A stretch of 40,392 bases of DNA from an uncultured Pseudomonadota bacterium (GTDB lineage Bacteria; Myxococcota_A; UBA796; SXON01), in NCBI GenBank assembly GCA_903959175.1, contig CAJBVW010000116.1, positions 1-40,392 of the forward strand. The letters run 5' to 3'. Below are positions 7,222-16,244 of this stretch, piece by piece; within the stretch, counting starts at the first letter, position 1, and each line of letters begins with the position of its first letter. The notes under the pieces are model-generated. The model was not told the DNA's origin, ran no database searches, and was given only the letters and a program-made list of their open reading frames with translations. The translations under genes were made by a program, and so were the position numbers.

Positions 7222-7686
7222 ATGTCGGGCCCCCACCGCGTCTGCATCGTGTGCTCCTCCGGGGGGCACCTCGCGCAATTGCACTGCCTCGACGCGTGGT
7301 GGTCCCGCCACGAGCGCTTCTGGGTCACGTTCGACAAGCCCGACGCCACCTCGCTCCTCGAGGGCGAGCGCGTCTACTTCGGCCACCACCCGACGAACCG
7401 CAACGTGCGCAACACCCTGCGGAACAGCCTGCTCGCGCTGCGCATCCTCGCCAAGGAGCGCCCCGAGATCATCGTGTCCAACGGGGCCGGGCTCGCGGTG
7501 CCCTTCTTCTGGATCGGCAAGGTCGTGTTCGGCTGCAAGACCGTCTACATCGAGGTCTACGACCGGGTGGACTCCCCCACCCTCACCGCGCGCCTCGTCG
7601 CGCCGGTGCTCGACAAGATGGTCATCCAGTGGGAGGACCAGCGCGCCTTCTACCCCGACGCCGAGAACCTCGGCGCCGTGCTGTAG
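7222..7686 (+). CDS. Alg14/PssD/CpsF-like glycosyltransferase subunit
   Basis: This 154-residue protein matches the membrane-anchoring, acceptor-binding half of a bipartite GT-B enzyme (eukaryotic Alg14, bacterial PssD/CpsF). It opens with VCIVCSSGGHLAQL, the glycine-rich loop of the family, and has RPEIIVSNGAGLAVPFFWIGK near residue 90 and YIEVYDRVDSPT near residue 115. The start is ATG 7222, chosen because the sequence gaaggaagcag just upstream is a good ribosome binding site; an upstream start at 7165 would overlap the divergent promoter region. The catalytic partner starts at the base after the stop codon. Together the two should transfer one sugar to a lipid-linked exopolysaccharide precursor. 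Confidence 0.88.
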   Translation: MSGPHRVCIVCSSGGHLAQLHCLDAWWSRHERFWVTFDKPDATSLLEGERVYFGHHPTNRNVRNTLRNSLLALRILAKERPEIIVSNGAGLAVPFFWIGKVVFGCKTVYIEVYDRVDSPTLTARLVAPVLDKMVIQWEDQRAFYPDAENLGAVL

Positions 7687-8175
7687 ATGATCTTCTGCAC
7701 CGTCGGCACGCACGAAGACCCCTTCGACCGCCTCCTCCGCGCGCTCGACACGGTCCCCGGCGACGAGCCGATCCGCATCCAGAGCGGCTACTCGACCTAC
7801 GCGCCCACGCGCTGCACGGCCGAGGCGATGATCCCCTTCCAGGCAGTGCAGCAGGCCATGCGCGACGCGCGCATCGTCGTCACGCACGGCGGGCCCGCCT
7901 CGATCATGCAGGCGCTGTCGCATGGGAAGGTGCCCATCGTCGTGCCGCGTCAGTCCGCCTTCGGCGAGCATGTGGACGATCACCAGGTGCGCTTCAGCGC
8001 CAAGATCGCCGACCGCGTGCTCGTCGTGCTCGACATCGCGGAGCTTCTCCCGACCATCGCGCAGTACGACCAACGCGTCGCACGCCTCGGCCAGACCACC
8101 CTCGGCCCCGAACGCGCGCGCCAATTCGCGGAGAAGCTCGACGCGCTGACGGAGCGCCTGCTCAGTCGATCCTGA
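7687..8175 (+). CDS. Alg13/PssE/CpsG-like glycosyltransferase catalytic subunit
   Basis: This 162-residue protein corresponds to the nucleotide-sugar-binding C-terminal domain of GT28 enzymes (Alg13, PssE, CpsG). Visible hallmarks are the start MIFCTVGTHEDPFDRLLRAL, the donor-binding loop VTHGGPASIMQALSHGKVPI near residues 60-80, and VPRQSAFGEHVDDHQ after it. It needs the Alg14-like protein encoded immediately upstream, whose stop codon abuts this ATG (TAGATG), implying translational coupling. The pair acts at the cytoplasmic face of the membrane in exopolysaccharide assembly. The donor sugar is unknown. Length is typical for the split subunit. Confidence 0.88.
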   Translation: MIFCTVGTHEDPFDRLLRALDTVPGDEPIRIQSGYSTYAPTRCTAEAMIPFQAVQQAMRDARIVVTHGGPASIMQALSHGKVPIVVPRQSAFGEHVDDHQVRFSAKIADRVLVVLDIAELLPTIAQYDQRVARLGQTTLGPERARQFAEKLDALTERLLSRS

Positions 8176-8196: not shown

Positions 8197-9963
8197 ATGT
8201 CCACCCCTCTCCCGAGCGGCCCCGACACCCTCGCCGAAGGGCGCTTCCGCCTGCTCGAGGTGATCGGCGAAGGGGGCATGGCGACCGTCTACCGCGCGCT
8301 CGACCTGCGCCTCCAGCGGCCGCGCGCGATCAAGATCCTCTCCCCCGAGCTCTCGACCCGCCCGTCCCTCCGCCGCCGCTTCCTCGCCGAAGCGCAGACG
8401 ATGGCGACGCTCGAGGAGAGCCGCGTCGTCCGCGTGTTCGACACCGGCGAAGAGGGCGACCGCGTCTACATCGTCATGGAGCTGGTCGAGGGTGGCTCGC
8501 TGCTCGACCGCGTGCGGGACTTCGGGCCCCTGCCCCCGCGCATGGCGGCCGAGGCGACCATCCAGATCTGCGAGAGCCTCCAGGTCGCGCACGACGCGGG
8601 GATCATCCACCGCGACATCAAGCCCCACAACATCCTCCTCACGCGCACCGGCGAGATCCGGGTGACCGACTTCGGCATCGCGCAGGTCCAGACGGAGGAC
8701 GGCGACGGCATGACCCGCACGGGCGCCGTCATGGGCACCTGGGGCTTCATGGCCCCCGAGCAGAAGACGAACGCCAAGCAGGTGGACGTGCGGGCGGACG
8801 TGTACTCGATCGGCGCCACGTTGTGGTCGCTCCTGCGCGCGGAGACGCCGCCCGAGCTGTTCATGGCGGACGCCGAGGCCGGCATGCTCGACGAGATCCC
8901 CGAGGCCCTCGGCGAGGTCATCCGGCGCGCCACGCGCTACCGGCGCGACGAGCGCTACCTCTCCGCGCGCGACATGGCCGCGTCGATCCGCGCGCTCCTG
9001 CCGATGCTGCCAGAGGATCCCGAGCTCACCGTCCCGCTCGTCGGGCACACGCTCGACCGCCCCGGCAAGCCGCTCGACACGATGCACCAGTTCACCGCGG
9101 ACAGCGGCACCACGGGCGTAAAGGAAGCCCCGCCCGCGCGCACGATGGTGCCCGACGCGGAGGAGCCCGCCGGCCCCACGCATCCGCCCGAGGCTCCCGA
9201 GGCCCCCGCGCCTTCGCCGGCATCCCTCGCCCCGGCATCCCTCGCCCCGGCCCCGCGGCCCCGCCCGCCCGCGCCCGCGCCCCGTCGCGCCGGCGCGTTC
9301 GTCCTCGTCGGAGGTGGCGCCGCCGCCCTCGGGACCGTCGCGACGCTCGGTGTCCTCGCCGTCGTGTTCTTCCTCCGGATCGACGCGCCGGTCGCGCCAC
9401 CGAACACAGTGCCCCCCGCCGTCGTCGCGCCCACTGCCCCGGTCGTCGCGCCCGTCGCCGCCGTGCCCCCGGAGGCCGTCCTCCCTGCGGCGGCGCCCCC
9501 CACGCCCACGCCCACCACGCCGGCGGCCACTGCCACGATGAAGCCCGTCGCTAGCGCCCCGGTCGGCGCCACCGCGCCCGTCGGCGCCACCGCGCCCGTC
9601 GGCGCTTCCGTGGCGGTCGTCGACGCCGTCGTCGTCGCGCCGGTCGCAGCGCCCGCCGAGGCCCCCGCCAAGGCCGCCCTCCGGGTGCAGGCCCCCTCCT
9701 CCGGGCGCGTCGGCGAGTCCCTCGCGTTCACGGCCACCCTCCCCGACCCGGGGTGGACGGTCAAGGTCTACTACCGTCCCGCGTCGGGCGGGGCCTTCGA
9801 TAACAAGGCGATGAACGCCGTGAATGGCACCTACACCGCCTCGGTCAAGGTCACCGACGCGATGGTGGGCGGCGTCTCCTGGTTCGTCTCGGCGACCAAG
9901 GGCGCGACCACGTTGAAGGAGGGCTCCCAGACCTCCGCCCGGTCCATCACGATCGCGCCGTAG
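8197..9963 (+). CDS. Transmembrane Hanks-type Ser/Thr protein kinase
   Basis: The product is 588 residues. The kinase domain covers about residues 17-270 and keeps all key elements: glycine loop GEGGMATVY, ATP-binding Lys46 in RAIKIL, the catalytic loop HRDIKPHN around residue 140, DFG at about 157 and a MAPEQ segment. It should be active. A Pro/Ala-rich linker follows, then one transmembrane helix at about residues 364-393, a second Ala/Pro/Val-rich linker with 18 bp repeats, and a C-terminal beta-rich domain of about 100 residues outside the cytoplasm. The start is ATG 8197, with aggaag placed 7 nt before it; GTG 8179 lacks such a site. It lies 21 bp after the PssE-like gene, so it may be co-transcribed and could sense or regulate exopolysaccharide production. 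Its substrate is unknown. Confidence 0.94.
   Translation: MSTPLPSGPDTLAEGRFRLLEVIGEGGMATVYRALDLRLQRPRAIKILSPELSTRPSLRRRFLAEAQTMATLEESRVVRVFDTGEEGDRVYIVMELVEGGSLLDRVRDFGPLPPRMAAEATIQICESLQVAHDAGIIHRDIKPHNILLTRTGEIRVTDFGIAQVQTEDGDGMTRTGAVMGTWGFMAPEQKTNAKQVDVRADVYSIGATLWSLLRAETPPELFMADAEAGMLDEIPEALGEVIRRATRYRRDERYLSARDMAASIRALLPMLPEDPELTVPLVGHTLDRPGKPLDTMHQFTADSGTTGVKEAPPARTMVPDAEEPAGPTHPPEAPEAPAPSPASLAPASLAPAPRPRPPAPAPRRAGAFVLVGGGAAALGTVATLGVLAVVFFLRIDAPVAPPNTVPPAVVAPTAPVVAPVAAVPPEAVLPAAAPPTPTPTTPAATATMKPVASAPVGATAPVGATAPVGASVAVVDAVVVAPVAAPAEAPAKAALRVQAPSSGRVGESLAFTATLPDPGWTVKVYYRPASGGAFDNKAMNAVNGTYTASVKVTDAMVGGVSWFVSATKGATTLKEGSQTSARSITIAP
9556..9609 (+). repeat. Three 18 bp tandem repeats in the kinase linker
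   Basis: Three consecutive 18 bp units, near-identical to gcgcccgtcggcgccacc, encode A-P-V-G-A-T/S three times in the second linker of the Ser/Thr kinase. A shorter duplicated unit (encoding SLAPA) lies at about 9219-9250 in the first linker. Such repeats can change copy number by slippage and so alter linker length. Confidence 0.8.
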
Positions 9964-10029: not shown

Positions 10030-11277
10030 TCACGGCCGGACTTGGGCCCAGAGACGGACGGTGTCGTTCGGGATGGTGCGATCCGCGTCTTCGAGGCGCA
10101 GCTCGTAGCCCGCGCCGACGCGCAGGCGGTCGCGCCCGCGGTCGTCCACGAGGCCGTGCCACACGACGCCCGCGAGGAGGTTCGTGTAGCCGCCGACCGA
10201 GGAGTCGTCGTAGAGGCTCACCTTGACGGCGGGCTCGAAGGCGCCGAGGCCGTAGCCGATCTGCCCGGTGAGGCCGCGGCGCGTCGTCTTCGCCCACACG
10301 CCCGGCACGCCGACGTCGGAGTTGGTGGGCGTCACGTCCGCGAGGGCGGCGTCCACGAGGAGGGTGAGCCCGGCGACGCGCACGATCGCGTCGGCGCCGA
10401 GGGCCTGGGTGGCGGTCGACACGTCGTCCGTCATGAAGGCGCCCGCGCCCACACCGAACGCGAACTTCCGGGAGCCGCCCCAGGTCTGGTAGACGTTGGC
10501 GTCGCCGAAGGCGTATTCGAGGCGGCCGAGGAGGGTCTTCCCGAGGTTGTCGTCCCCGTAGAGGCCGCCGCCGCTGTTGTACACGCCGAGGGAGAGCTTC
10601 GCGCCCCACCGCTCCGCCGAGAGCGTGGCGCCGAGCTCGCGCCCGGGGCTGATGTGCTCGGCGAGCATGCCGCGCTCGGTGAAGGTCTGCTCGCCGGACG
10701 CGATCATGCGGTCGCGCGAGAAAGGCAGCTCGTCCTTCCCGACCTGGACCCCGAGGCCCTTCCAGCGATAGCCGAGGTGCGCGTCGACGATCTCGATCGA
10801 CCCGTCCTGCTCGTCGAACCCGTCGTACGGGGCGGTCAACCCGACCACGAACCCCCAGTCGAGCCCCTTCTCCTCGCCCTCGAGGCCGAGGCGGAAGCGC
10901 TTGACCTTGAAGCCGACGTCGTCCTCGGGATCGCCGTAGCCGGTGGCGTCGGCGACGTCGTCCTGGTCCATGTCGTAGGCGGTGCCCCAGAGCTGGAGCA
11001 TGCCGACGGGGCGGATGTGCGCCCAGATGCCGCGCGGCCCGTCGCCGTGGCCGCCCTCGCCGCCGTCCCCGTGGGGGCCGTCCCCGTGGGGGCCCGGAGG
11101 CCCGCGCCGCCCTTCCCCGCCACCGCCGCCGCGCCCCTTGCCGCCCTTCTTGCGGCCGAAGTCGGCCGGGGGCGGCTCCTCAGCCACCGCGGGGCCCTCG
11201 GAGGCGTCGGCCCCAGTGCCCGCGAGGGCGACGGAAGGAGCGAGCGTCAGGGCAGCGAGGGCGAGCAGCATGGACAT
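10030..11277 (-). CDS. OprP/OprO-like outer-membrane porin
   Basis: This is a 415-residue predicted outer-membrane beta-barrel. A signal peptide (MSMLLALAALTLAPSVALAG) is followed by an unusual basic glycine-rich stretch and a His/Asp/Gly repeat region (about residues 45-85). The barrel then begins at about residue 90 with GIWAHIRPVGMLQLWGTAYD. Segments such as VKRFRLGLEGEEKGLDWGF, LGYRWKGLGVQVGKDELPFSR and SAERWGAKLSLGVYNSGGG resemble the phosphate-selective porin O/P family. The chain ends with the alternating pattern DTVRLWAQVRP, though not the classic terminal aromatic residue. The start is ATG 11277 (a second ATG lies two codons on). A longer open frame to 13917 is antisense to the PHP gene and is not used. 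Anion selectivity is inferred from the family only. Confidence 0.78.
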   Translation of the reverse strand: MSMLLALAALTLAPSVALAGTGADASEGPAVAEEPPPADFGRKKGGKGRGGGGGEGRRGPPGPHGDGPHGDGGEGGHGDGPRGIWAHIRPVGMLQLWGTAYDMDQDDVADATGYGDPEDDVGFKVKRFRLGLEGEEKGLDWGFVVGLTAPYDGFDEQDGSIEIVDAHLGYRWKGLGVQVGKDELPFSRDRMIASGEQTFTERGMLAEHISPGRELGATLSAERWGAKLSLGVYNSGGGLYGDDNLGKTLLGRLEYAFGDANVYQTWGGSRKFAFGVGAGAFMTDDVSTATQALGADAIVRVAGLTLLVDAALADVTPTNSDVGVPGVWAKTTRRGLTGQIGYGLGAFEPAVKVSLYDDSSVGGYTNLLAGVVWHGLVDDRGRDRLRVGAGYELRLEDADRTIPNDTVRLWAQVRP

Positions 11278-11307: not shown

Positions 11308-14277
11308 ATGCACCTCCTTCTCCTCCTGGCCTGCTCCGAACCCGGCCCCTGGACCCGCGCGACGCAGATCGCCTCGCTGGAAGACGGCATCGGAGGCCCG
11401 AAGGCGATGGCGCGCCCGGGAGACTTCCTCCTGGAGAACGACCGCGTGCGCTTCACCGTGCTGGGCGCGCGCAACTCGCTCGGCCCGAGCCCGTACGGGG
11501 GCACGATCGCCGACGCCGATCTTCAGCGGCGCGACCCCCGCTACGCCGCGGGCCACGGCAACGACCGGCTCGCGGAGACCTTCCCGACGGTCAACATGAA
11601 CCTCGCCGCCGTGAAGGCCGGCGAGCAGGTGGAGATCATCGCGGACGGGAGCGACGGCACCGCCGCCATCATCCGCACCAGCGCCGCGGCCGAGCCGTTC
11701 CTCACGATGCTCGACCCGCTCTGGGCCGTCGTCGGGCAGCCCGACTTCCGCATCACCACCGACTACGTGCTCGAGCCGGGCGCGGGCGCCCTCAAGATCC
11801 GCACCACGGCGGTGTTCGGCACCTCCGAGGCGACCGAGGGCACGGTGCTCCCCGGCAGCACCGCGGGCCTGGACGTGCTCGATCTCGCCATCAGCACCGG
11901 CGTGGCCTTCGGCGACTTCTACCTCCAGGGTGGCTCGGTCGACGTGTTCGCGCCCGGTATGGGCTTCGACGAGGACCGCGCGGTGGACACCGTGCGCAGC
12001 GCCGGCGTCAACACCTTCCAGGAGCCGTTCCAGTTCGCCTTCGTGGCGGGCGTGGCGGACGGCGTCTCCTACGGGATCGCCGCGGCGGACGGGGATCTCT
12101 ACGTCCCCCTGTTCACCTCCTCGCAGACGGCGGCCTTCGGCGCCGGCATCCGCGGGGACGGCACCGGCGGCCGCTTCCCCGACGGCACCGCGTACACCTA
12201 CGAGCGCTACCTCGCGATCGGCAACGGAGACGTGGGGAGCGTGCTCGACGCGCTGATCGAGGCCAAGGGCGTCCCCTACGGCGAGGTGCGCGGCTACGTC
12301 CTCGAGGAGGGCACCGGCATGGCGCTCTCCGGCGTGTCCGTGTTCGCCTACGAGGCCGGCGCGGAACAGCCGTACAACCAGTGGGAGACCGACGTCGGAG
12401 ACGACGAGCAGCACGACGGCTCCTTCGGCGGGCGCCTCCCCCCGGGCGACTGGGAGCTCGTGGTGCACGGGCGCGGCCGCCCGGACGGCGGGTGCGACGG
12501 CGACGAGGTCGCGGGCCGCTGCGCCGGCATCCCCGTCACCGTGACCGAGGGCGGCACCGTGAACCTGACGCTCGGCTCGCCGCGCGCGGGCCAGGTCAGC
12601 GTGACCGTCGTGGACGAGCTCGGGCGCTCCGCCCCCGCAAAGATCAGCTTCTTCGGAGAGAAGGGCCTCGATGCCGACCTTGGGGACGACTACATCGGCG
12701 GCGCCCCCTCCGAGGTCGTCTTCACCCGGGACGGCAAGGCGGACGTGATCCTCCCGCCCGGCACCTACACCGCGGTCGCCTCGCGCGGCCTCGAGTACGA
12801 GCTCGCGACCTCCGCCCCCTTCACCGTGACGGACACCGGCGTCTCCCGCCTCGATCTCCAGATCGTACACTCGGTGGACACAACGGGCTGGGTGAGCGCC
12901 GACTTCCACGTCCACGCCATCAACAGCTTCGACTCCGGCACGAGCCTCACCGACCGCGTCATCACCATGGCGGCGGAGGGCGTCGAGTTCTTCGCCTCCA
13001 CCGACCACGATGCGCTCACCGACTACGCGCCCACCGTCGAGGATCTCGGCCTCGAACCCTGGGTCAAGACCGCCGTGGGCCTGGAGACGACCACCCTCGA
13101 GGTCGGCCACTTCCTCGGCTTCCCCTTCGTCGCGGACACCCTCGCCGAGCAGGGCGGCGCCTTCGACTGGACGGGCATGTCCGCCGGGGAGATCCTCGAC
13201 ACCCTGGACGAGCTCGGCACCCGCTCCGGCTACGAGCCCATCCGCTTCGTCGCCCACCCGCGCGACGGCATCCTCGGCTACTTCGACCAGTTCGGCTACG
13301 ACCCGTACACCGGCACGATCGCGACGCCCGTGCTCTCCGTCGTCAACCCGCTGCTCCGCGCGGACGAGTACGACGCCGACTTCGAGGCCCTCGAGCTCCT
13401 CAACGGCAAGCGCTTCGAGATCGTACGCACGCCCACGCAGGACGAGCTCGACCGCTACGCTGCCGGCGGGGCCCTCTCCTCCTACGACATGGTGGCCCGC
13501 AGCGGCCAGGAGCAGGAGGACCTCCAGGCGGGCGTCTACCGCCTCGGCTACGGCCACGAGGGGCAGGTGGACGACTGGTTCTCCCTGCTGAACACCGGCA
13601 AGCGCTACACGGCGCTCGGCAACAGCGACACCCACGGCAAGTTCTCGGTCGAGGCCGGCTGCCCCCGGAACTACGTCGTCACCGACACGGACGACCCCTC
13701 CCAGATCGACGAGCAGGCCATCGCGGACGCCGTGCGCGCCGGCCACGTCGTCGCGAGCTACGGCCCGTTCGTACGCTTCTCCGCGAACGACACCGCCATC
13801 GTCGGCGACGAGCTGGTGGACACCGACGGCACGGTGGACCTCCACGTCGAGGTCCAGGCGCCCACCTGGATCCCCGTCGACCGCGTGGAGCTCTACCAGA
13901 ACGGCACGCTCATCCACGAGTGGGAGGGCCTCGACCCCGACATCGTGAAGCTCGTGCAGGACATCTCCGTGCCCGTCACGAAGGACTCCTGGTTCGTCAT
14001 CGTGGCCGTGGGCGACGGGGACCTCTCCCCCGTCTTCACGCCCGTCGAGATGGCGCCCGTGCAGCTCCAGGACGTCGTCACGGAGGCCCTCTCCGATGTG
14101 CCGGCGGTCGGCTCGCTCCTGTCGCCCGCCATCCCCATCCCGCGCTCGGGCGCCGTGATCCCCTACGCGATCACGAACCCCATCTACGTCGACGTCGACG
14201 GCGCCGGGTGGACCGCCCCCGGCCTGCCCACCTGGCTCCTGCCCCCCGAGGAACCGGAAGAGGAGCCCGGCCGGTGA
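11308..14277 (+). CDS. PHP-domain (CehA/McbA-like) lipoprotein
   Basis: The product is 989 residues. It begins MHLLLLLACSEPG, a very short signal peptide with Cys9 as the likely lipidation site. An N-terminal region of about 330 residues rich in beta structure is followed by one or two carboxypeptidase-regulatory-like beta-sandwich segments (about 330-510). A PHP metal-dependent phosphoesterase-like domain starts near residue 530. Metal ligands are visible in DFHVHAINSFDSG, then in STDHDALTDY near 564, and later in GNSDTHGKFS. PHP domains of the CehA/McbA type hydrolyse esters or phosphoesters with a trinuclear metal centre. The longer open frame to 10042 overlaps the porin gene and has no plausible start. 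Divergent pairing with a phosphate-type porin suggests scavenging of organic phosphate at the envelope; the real substrate is unknown. Confidence 0.85.
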   Translation: MHLLLLLACSEPGPWTRATQIASLEDGIGGPKAMARPGDFLLENDRVRFTVLGARNSLGPSPYGGTIADADLQRRDPRYAAGHGNDRLAETFPTVNMNLAAVKAGEQVEIIADGSDGTAAIIRTSAAAEPFLTMLDPLWAVVGQPDFRITTDYVLEPGAGALKIRTTAVFGTSEATEGTVLPGSTAGLDVLDLAISTGVAFGDFYLQGGSVDVFAPGMGFDEDRAVDTVRSAGVNTFQEPFQFAFVAGVADGVSYGIAAADGDLYVPLFTSSQTAAFGAGIRGDGTGGRFPDGTAYTYERYLAIGNGDVGSVLDALIEAKGVPYGEVRGYVLEEGTGMALSGVSVFAYEAGAEQPYNQWETDVGDDEQHDGSFGGRLPPGDWELVVHGRGRPDGGCDGDEVAGRCAGIPVTVTEGGTVNLTLGSPRAGQVSVTVVDELGRSAPAKISFFGEKGLDADLGDDYIGGAPSEVVFTRDGKADVILPPGTYTAVASRGLEYELATSAPFTVTDTGVSRLDLQIVHSVDTTGWVSADFHVHAINSFDSGTSLTDRVITMAAEGVEFFASTDHDALTDYAPTVEDLGLEPWVKTAVGLETTTLEVGHFLGFPFVADTLAEQGGAFDWTGMSAGEILDTLDELGTRSGYEPIRFVAHPRDGILGYFDQFGYDPYTGTIATPVLSVVNPLLRADEYDADFEALELLNGKRFEIVRTPTQDELDRYAAGGALSSYDMVARSGQEQEDLQAGVYRLGYGHEGQVDDWFSLLNTGKRYTALGNSDTHGKFSVEAGCPRNYVVTDTDDPSQIDEQAIADAVRAGHVVASYGPFVRFSANDTAIVGDELVDTDGTVDLHVEVQAPTWIPVDRVELYQNGTLIHEWEGLDPDIVKLVQDISVPVTKDSWFVIVAVGDGDLSPVFTPVEMAPVQLQDVVTEALSDVPAVGSLLSPAIPIPRSGAVIPYAITNPIYVDVDGAGWTAPGLPTWLLPPEEPEEEPGR

Positions 14278-15050
14278 GCCTCCTGTTCGAACAAGAGCTC
14301 GCCGCCATCGACTTTGAGACGACCGGCCTGTTCCCCGAGAAGGGGGACCGCGCCATCGAGGTCGCCGTCGTGCGCGGCCGCTACGGCGAGACGCCGACGA
14401 CCTGGTCGACCCTCCTCGACCCCGGCCGCCCCGTGGACGCGAGCGAGATCCACGGCATCACCGACGAGATGTTGCGTGGCCAGCCACGCTTCATCGAGCG
14501 CGCTCCCGCGCTGTCCCGCATGCTCTCCGGCTCCGTGCCCGTCGCGCATAACGCCAGGTTCGACGAGTCCTTCCTTCTTCTCGAGTACGAGCTCGCCGGG
14601 CTATGGGCGCCCGAGGCCCCGATCCTCGACACCCTCGGGCTCTCCCGCCGGGTGCTCGCGCTCTCCAGCCACCGCCTCGCCTCGATCTGCGAGCACTTCG
14701 ACATCGCGCGCGGCGTCTCGCACCGCGCGCTCGACGACGCGCACGCCACCTGGCAGATGGCGTGGCGGCTCCTCGATCTGGCCGATCCGACGCACCAGCT
14801 CACCGTGGAGGACGCTCACCGCATGTGCCGGCGCCCCAACACCGAGGAGATCCGCGTGCTGACGCTGGCGCTCCAGGAGTCCGCGCGACAGGCTGTCCCG
14901 GTCTTGATCGACTACCGCCGCTCCGACGCCCAGCCCTCCCGCCGCTCGATCACCGTCCAGCGCATCCTCGGCTCCCGCGTGGAGGCCTTCTGCCACCTCC
15001 GCGGCGAGGACCGCGTGTTCCGGATCGATCGGATCAGCTTGGTCGGATAG
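14274..15050 (+). CDS. DEDDh 3'-5' exonuclease fused to a WYL-like domain
   Basis: This is a 258-residue cytoplasmic protein. Residues 5-165 form a DnaQ-like exonuclease with all motifs: ExoI IDFETTG (Asp12, Glu14), ExoII AHNARFDESF near 91-100, and ExoIII HRALDDAHAT near 149-158, which classes it as DEDDh. The C-terminal part (about 200-258, VPVLIDYRR to VFRIDRISLVG) resembles a WYL domain, a ligand- or nucleic-acid-binding module known from regulators and defence systems. The start is GTG 14274, overlapping the stop of the PHP gene as GTGA. This is odd, because the upstream product is exported and this one is not. A general repair role or a role in nucleic-acid surveillance are both possible. 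Confidence 0.85.
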   Translation: MSLLFEQELAAIDFETTGLFPEKGDRAIEVAVVRGRYGETPTTWSTLLDPGRPVDASEIHGITDEMLRGQPRFIERAPALSRMLSGSVPVAHNARFDESFLLLEYELAGLWAPEAPILDTLGLSRRVLALSSHRLASICEHFDIARGVSHRALDDAHATWQMAWRLLDLADPTHQLTVEDAHRMCRRPNTEEIRVLTLALQESARQAVPVLIDYRRSDAQPSRRSITVQRILGSRVEAFCHLRGEDRVFRIDRISLVG

Positions 15051-15623: not shown

Positions 15624-16244
15624 CTACTCCTCGCCGGAGTCCTCGCCGGAGTCCTCGCCGTAGTCCTCTTCGTCGTCGTCCTCGGGCTCCGGCACGATCG
15701 CCGCCGCCGCGCGGAGCTGCTGGAGGAGCCGCGTCTGGGCGCGGGCCGCCGCCGGGCCCGTCCCCCGCGCTTCACGCGCGCTCGATCGGATCCCCTGGCG
15801 ATCGGCCCCCGGATACGCTTCGATGAACGCCTGGAGGACCGTGTCGTCCCCCGCGACGATGCGCGTGCGCCAATGCGCGGTCTCGCGGTCGCGCGCGGCG
15901 GCGGGGGTGTTCCCTTCGAGCGCGGCCTGGACCTTCACGAGGTCGCAGCCGCTGAGGAAGAGCTTGGCCCGCATGAGCAACCGCCGCCGGTGCGGCATGC
16001 GCGCCGCCGCCGCGAGCATGTCCATCTGCTCGTGCGTGTCCTCGTCGAGCGGGAGCATGCGGCGCTGGTGCTGGGTCATGCGTGCGATCCGGTTCGCGAG
16101 CGCCTTCAGATCGACCATCGCGGCGCGGTGCTCGTTCCGATCGAAGGGCTTGACGGCCTCCTCGGAGGGCTCGTCGACGCCGGGGAGCACCGAGGGATCG
16201 TCCGGGAGGGTAGGTTCCGCCTGGATGTTTTTGAGGGTCGACAC
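15624..16244 (-). CDS. DarP/YjgA-like (DUF615) ribosome biogenesis factor with acidic tail
   Basis: The product is 206 residues. The central region (about 30-180) matches the DUF615 family. It has FDRNEHRAAMVDLKALANRI, then RMLPLDEDTHEQMDML, the basic helix HRRRLLMRAKLFL, the RETAHWRTRIVAGDD segment and AFIEAYPGADRQGIR. The family protein binds pre-50S ribosomal particles and helps assembly. The last 25 residues are almost all Asp/Glu/Gly/Ser, an extension encoded partly by tandem 12 bp repeats and not usual for the family. The start is ATG 16244. It is convergent with the FKBP gene. Assignment is by pattern only, so it is likely but not certain. Confidence 0.78.
   Translation of the reverse strand: MSTLKNIQAEPTLPDDPSVLPGVDEPSEEAVKPFDRNEHRAAMVDLKALANRIARMTQHQRRMLPLDEDTHEQMDMLAAAARMPHRRRLLMRAKLFLSGCDLVKVQAALEGNTPAAARDRETAHWRTRIVAGDDTVLQAFIEAYPGADRQGIRSSAREARGTGPAAARAQTRLLQQLRAAAAIVPEPEDDDEEDYGEDSGEDSGEE
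15628..15663 (-). repeat. 12 bp tandem repeats at the 3' end of the DarP-like gene
   Basis: Three consecutive 12 bp units (plus strand tcctcgccggag twice, then tcctcgccgtag) encode a repeated Gly-Glu-Asp-Ser/Tyr pattern in the acidic tail. The repeat keeps the reading frame. Confidence 0.8.

Follow-up and report, generated by a model that had tools for sequence, protein, structure and literature searches.

A conserved fusion of a DEDDh exonuclease with a WYL domain that is probably of the ssDNA-binding type

WYL domains have been studied almost solely in transcription factors. PafBC, DriD, CapW and BrxR are transcription regulators in which the WYL fold is accompanied by an HTH domain (and in many cases by a WCX domain), and they have no nuclease part. 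In PafBC, mutation of an RxxR arginine pair in both WYL domains abolishes ssDNA binding, the pair in PafB being the essential one (PMC11804915). In the Pif1 helicases TePif1 and DdPif1, a C-terminal WYL domain without WCX is attached to a DNA-processing enzyme, in this case an SF1 helicase, and residues R464, R491, R495, R498 and R501 of DdPif1 have been modelled as ssDNA contacts (PMC9964779). Pol III epsilon, the PolC exonuclease and other DEDDh enzymes (2p1j, 2ido) have no WYL domain, and exonuclease I (SbcB; PDB 1fxx, 4rg8) has a DEDDh exonuclease followed by an SH3-like barrel. A fusion of WYL with a 3'-5' exoRNase, which going by its description has the same architecture as the protein reported here, was listed by Makarova et al. 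in 2014 (PMC4012209), where it forms one item of a list and the accompanying text gives no distribution, residues or function for it. In a 2019 survey of WYL architectures (PMC6789036), which excluded classes of fewer than 100 sequences, the section on architectures does not include this fusion. We found no paper devoted to a fusion of DnaQ or RNase T with WYL in the open-licence literature. The exonuclease-WYL combination has been listed in passing before, and the family is uncharacterised.

The protein studied here is encoded in a 40,392-nucleotide stretch of DNA (referred to below as the window), in which the following features are relevant:

10030 to 11277, minus strand: Porin O/P-like protein, divergent from the PHP gene (PF07396, 1.9e-13)
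11308 to 14277, plus strand: CehA/McbA-family PHP metallohydrolase, predicted lipoprotein (MHLLLLLACS...), 989 aa (NF038032, 125.5 bits, cut-off 80)
14274 to 15050, plus strand: DEDDh exonuclease-WYL fusion gene, open reading frame of 258 aa with a GTG start
14298 to 14768, plus strand: DEDDh (DnaQ-type) exonuclease domain, residues 9-165 (Pfam RNase_T, Foldseek, invariant catalytic residues)
14841 to 15047, plus strand: WYL domain, residues 190-258 (helix 190-206, then five strands; R224, C240, R243, R247, R250, R253)

The two domains lie in one polypeptide of 258 aa. The last 4 bases of the PHP gene are also the first 4 of the fusion gene, and the GTG start is supported by the homologous loci, most of which preserve a stop/start overlap of the nTGA type (ATGA, GTGA or TTGA) with the gene upstream.

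The N-terminal part of the protein matches Pfam RNase_T over residues 11-160 (3.6e-26), as do all 32 family members that were compared. Consistent with the first-pass annotation, which had reported all three DnaQ-type exonuclease motifs, the protein has the four acidic residues and the motif-III histidine of a DEDDh enzyme on an RNase_T fold. These five catalytic residues (D13, E15, D97, H150 and D155) are unchanged across 56 of 56 fused proteins, which argues that selection keeps the family active. Structural matches of the exonuclease found with Foldseek include the PolC exonuclease, Pol III epsilon, exonuclease I and RNase T, and the closest exonucleases by sequence are the DNA enzymes PolC, DinG and epsilon; epsilon and PolC have both the domain and its catalytic residues in common with the fusion protein. 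Going by these residues, the protein is probably a 3'-5' exonuclease that nibbles DNA (or RNA) from the 3' end. Note that because the window's genome contains separate, plain DnaQ paralogues, the fusion protein is not obviously the replicative proofreader.

Several comparisons indicate that the C-terminus has a WYL fold. WYL (PF13280; Pfam cut-off 21.8 bits) matches residues 199-255 of the whole protein with 22.4 bits and the C-terminal 66 aa searched alone with 26.8 bits (5.2e-6), and it was matched in 31 of the 32 family members at E <= 0.01 (best 4.5e-16). When a C-terminal family profile built from 31 homologues was searched against the PDB, it found PafBC (4e-19), PafC (2e-12) and a thermophile Pif1 (2e-12), together with BrxR, DriD and CapW; the single unrelated entry below E = 1 was at chance level (0.56). 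AlphaFold2 predicted the full protein with a pLDDT of 93.9 and a pTM of 0.81, placing five strands after the helix at residues 190-206, and predicted the WYL domain alone (pLDDT 93.3) as a helix with a five-stranded, Sm-like SH3 barrel. With this isolated domain as query, Foldseek placed CapW, PafBC and BrxR on top, with TM scores to the query of 0.71-0.82 (0.78-0.82 for the first five). A WYL-like C-terminus had been proposed from a first reading of the sequence, with a profile or structure comparison against WYL suggested as the way to check it, and both kinds of comparison agree with that proposal.

The tail could have been the normal C-terminal extension of a DnaQ subfamily, and this possibility was ruled out. 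PF21762 (DEDDh_C, a Pol III epsilon-like C-terminal model) is unmatched in the window protein, and in its relatives this model aligns over the exonuclease (about residues 82-170), outside the tail. In an exonuclease tree of 112 rows, none of the 55 unfused rows has a WYL match; many of the unfused exonucleases stop 20-40 residues past the exonuclease, and the fused ones have tails of about 85-125 residues. Thus, with tails of WYL fold confined to fused proteins and PF21762 lying off the tail, the lack of WYL likeness that would have spoken against the original proposal is not what was found. Membership of the WYL transcription factor class (PafBC, BrxR, CapW) was also rejected, since that class has an N-terminal HTH domain; there is no Pfam HTH match in the window protein, whose N-terminus is the exonuclease. 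(In the window's genome WYL was found only once more, at G000:C376:1327-1524 (L186), in an open frame of 333 aa that is probably a transcription factor.)

The family shares the four basic residues that WYL domains conserve and the cysteine that many of them have. In an alignment of 32 members (A1), R224 is conserved in 31, R or K occupies position 247 in 32, position 250 in 29 and position 253 in 32, and the cysteine C240 is present in all 32. (The conservation of R224 depends on the alignment in a larger protein set.) R243, R247, R250 and R253 align without gaps to R491, R495, R498 and R501 of DdPif1, and R224 aligns through the profile to R464, such that all five of the modelled ssDNA contacts of the helicase have counterparts in the fusion protein. 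Moreover, R250 and R253 align to R201 and R204 of PafC, so that the RxxR arginines that PafBC requires for binding ssDNA are present here too, and both are retained in 11 of 11 proteins whose WYL domains are degenerate. These conserved arginines suggest that the WYL domain is probably of the ssDNA-binding type, although binding of this sort could equally serve to hold a substrate or to work a switch.

We favour the reading, to which we assign a probability of about one half, that the protein is a stand-alone, cytosolic 3'-5' DEDDh exonuclease with its own single-strand-binding WYL domain, which would hold the strand being cut. The basic groove of the WYL barrel (R247, R250, R253 and their neighbours) would grip the phosphate backbone of a single strand some nucleotides 5' of its end, while the DEDDh site, using two metal ions, would take nucleotides off the 3' end. 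The barrel would thereby confer strand selectivity and processivity, much as may be expected from the SH3-like domain of exonuclease I and from the use of WYL for ssDNA in Pif1, and the likely role of the enzyme would lie in repair or recombination, through the trimming of DNA ends or the removal of ssDNA. We infer the activity, ssDNA (rather than RNA) as the ligand and the holding role of the WYL domain from residues and folds, namely the arginine alignments and the likeness to exonuclease I among the Foldseek matches of the whole model. Two considerations count against this reading: neither Sm-like barrels nor DEDDh enzymes are confined to DNA, both being active on RNA as well, and the gene neighbourhoods outside the window's order are mixed, with no repair context seen in them.

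The likeness to exonuclease I has limits. The alignments of exonuclease I to the whole model have an rmsd of 8-9 over 300 columns, such that any likeness in the arrangement of the two domains is tentative. Moreover, the barrel domain of exonuclease I is larger (about 155 residues), WYL was not found in it, and the enzyme has a third, helical domain. The C-terminal region of exonuclease I (PF08411) has no match in the whole of the window's genome, and the fusion protein is thus not a member of that family. We also rejected the idea that the fusion replaces exonuclease I; PF08411 occurs in 1 of 38 genomes, but no more than 1 of 14 control genomes has it either, and little can be read into its absence. 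A complementary loss of ExoVII was likewise ruled out, as 55 of 58 genomes have this enzyme.

The same conserved residues might serve other ends. The first-pass annotation had proposed an exonuclease gated by a bound nucleotide or DNA end. In such a ligand-gated enzyme the WYL domain would detect a molecule separate from the substrate, either a nucleotide or a piece of ssDNA that reports damage, and would thereby turn the exonuclease on or off. The WYL domains of DriD and PafBC do act as ssDNA-controlled switches of transcription factors, and Makarova et al. 2014 (PMC4012209) predicted WYL to be a ligand sensor, enzyme fusions included. However, no gene for a signalling partner and no defence or cyclic-nucleotide synthase context was seen nearby, and a substrate-binding role accounts for the same residues in fewer steps; we therefore regard gating as rather unlikely. 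A fully allosteric sensor, in which the WYL domain binds ssDNA or a nucleotide other than the substrate and thereby permits degradation from the 3' end, seems more doubtful still; if true, it would make the protein a WYL-gated nuclease, and hence a direct effector of the response to DNA damage instead of a transcriptional one. It is also conceivable, though rather unlikely, that the substrate is RNA, with the Sm-like barrel binding it and the DEDDh site trimming its 3' ends in the manner of RNase T or oligoribonuclease. The WYL barrel model resembles Hfq (Foldseek TM 0.67), RNase T is among the structural matches, the Pfam Rv2179c-like exoRNase model is over its cut-off in several family members, and the fused enzyme listed in PMC4012209 was termed an exoRNase. 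Set against these points are the DNA enzymes that are the nearest relatives in sequence and the finding that PafBC is activated by ssDNA but not by ssRNA (PMC11804915).

An anti-phage effector, that is, a nuclease released by its WYL sensor during infection, would be consistent with the PADLOC models that match the protein (the candidate system PDC-S48, and Cas-associated DEDDh and WYL proteins). These matches are generic, however; plain DnaQ proteins align to the same stretch of the PDC-S48 model, and against the PDC-S48 and DEDDh models they score about as well (125-167 versus 132-176 bits). As the gene is moreover a conserved chromosomal one, which two thirds of the order carry among housekeeping genes and outside defence islands, we rejected PDC-S48 as non-specific and consider a defence role very improbable. 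The translational coupling to an exported PHP lipoprotein, which the first-pass annotation had singled out, raises the further idea that the two proteins form a functional unit that, for example, handles nucleic acids taken up from outside. The coupling itself stood up: the PHP gene adjoins the fusion gene in 25 of 39 fusion-bearing genomes (by family, 13 of 16, 9 of 9, 3 of 3 and 0 of 11), mostly with an nTGA overlap and across PHP identities down to 47%. The functional link did not fare as well. Both genes are present but apart in all 11 genomes of the fourth family, 55 of 58 genomes of the order have PHP, at identities down to 49%, and 16 of these have no fusion, the fusion occurs in other phyla without PHP alongside, and PHP is predicted to be exported whereas the fusion protein is predicted to be cytosolic. 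An obligate partnership was thus ruled out, and a functional unit of any kind appears most unlikely. Since each gene occurs without the other beside it, the pairing is probably inherited operon structure, with the PHP lipoprotein apparently a core gene of the lineage.

The Porin O/P-like gene also belongs to the conserved neighbourhood of the fusion gene. Beyond the PHP-linked families, unrelated genes flank the fusion: HrpB at one locus, a presumably MurB-like protein at another, TPR proteins and other housekeeping genes. In three unrelated lineages (L173, L180, L058 and similar) a TPR protein is encoded next to the fusion gene, downstream in two and upstream in one; this could be chance, TPR being common. 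Elsewhere in the window, two adjacent short genes at 7222-8175 (plus strand), which we take to be a look-alike of a split ALG14/ALG13-type glycosyltransferase, lie beside a Ser/Thr protein kinase (8197-9960), a pairing retained in many relatives, and a DarP-like ribosomal maturation protein is encoded at 15624-16244 on the minus strand (PF04751, 6e-15).

The fusion protein has full-length matches in 39 of 58 relatives, and within the window's order 43 of 63 genomes carry one. Distant full-length relatives occur within the window's phylum and, by contig label, in Melainabacteria/Obscuribacterales, Actinomycetota, Armatimonadota, Zixibacteria, Spirochaetes, Planctomycetota, Desulfofervidaceae and Bacteriovoracales, and in most of these distant relatives WYL is over the Pfam cut-off. 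The expectation that the fusion would be conserved across genera is thus borne out. In one branch of the window's phylum (L164-L175) the WYL domain is degenerate; the otherwise invariant cysteine is mostly lost and the RxxR arginines are retained. In the exonuclease tree, the window's order and this branch form one clade of 36 rows (SH-aLRT 93) that spans most of the phylum, apart from the other fusions, and at least 8 changes between the fused and unfused states are required. Forcing all fusions into a single clade, a group defined by the fusion trait itself, was rejected (p-AU 0.02), on a tree that was built quickly and whose inner branches are weak. Together, these two results argue against a single origin and favour more than one joining; it is likely, judging from this tree, that the domains were joined more than once or that the fusion was lost repeatedly. 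Similarity in phage records lies mainly in the exonuclease part; in one of them, a faecal phage record (MT835764.1, 14741-15448), an unannotated protein matches residues 4-239 with 91% query cover and 33% identity.

The fusion is a conserved, unstudied enzyme that would process DNA (or RNA) ends in a lineage mostly without exonuclease I. As a widespread exonuclease with the same arginines that bind ssDNA in other WYL proteins, it offers a simple in vitro system in which a WYL domain acting as a substrate clamp might be told from one acting as a switch. If the two domains were indeed joined more than once, this would indicate that their combination carries a real functional advantage.
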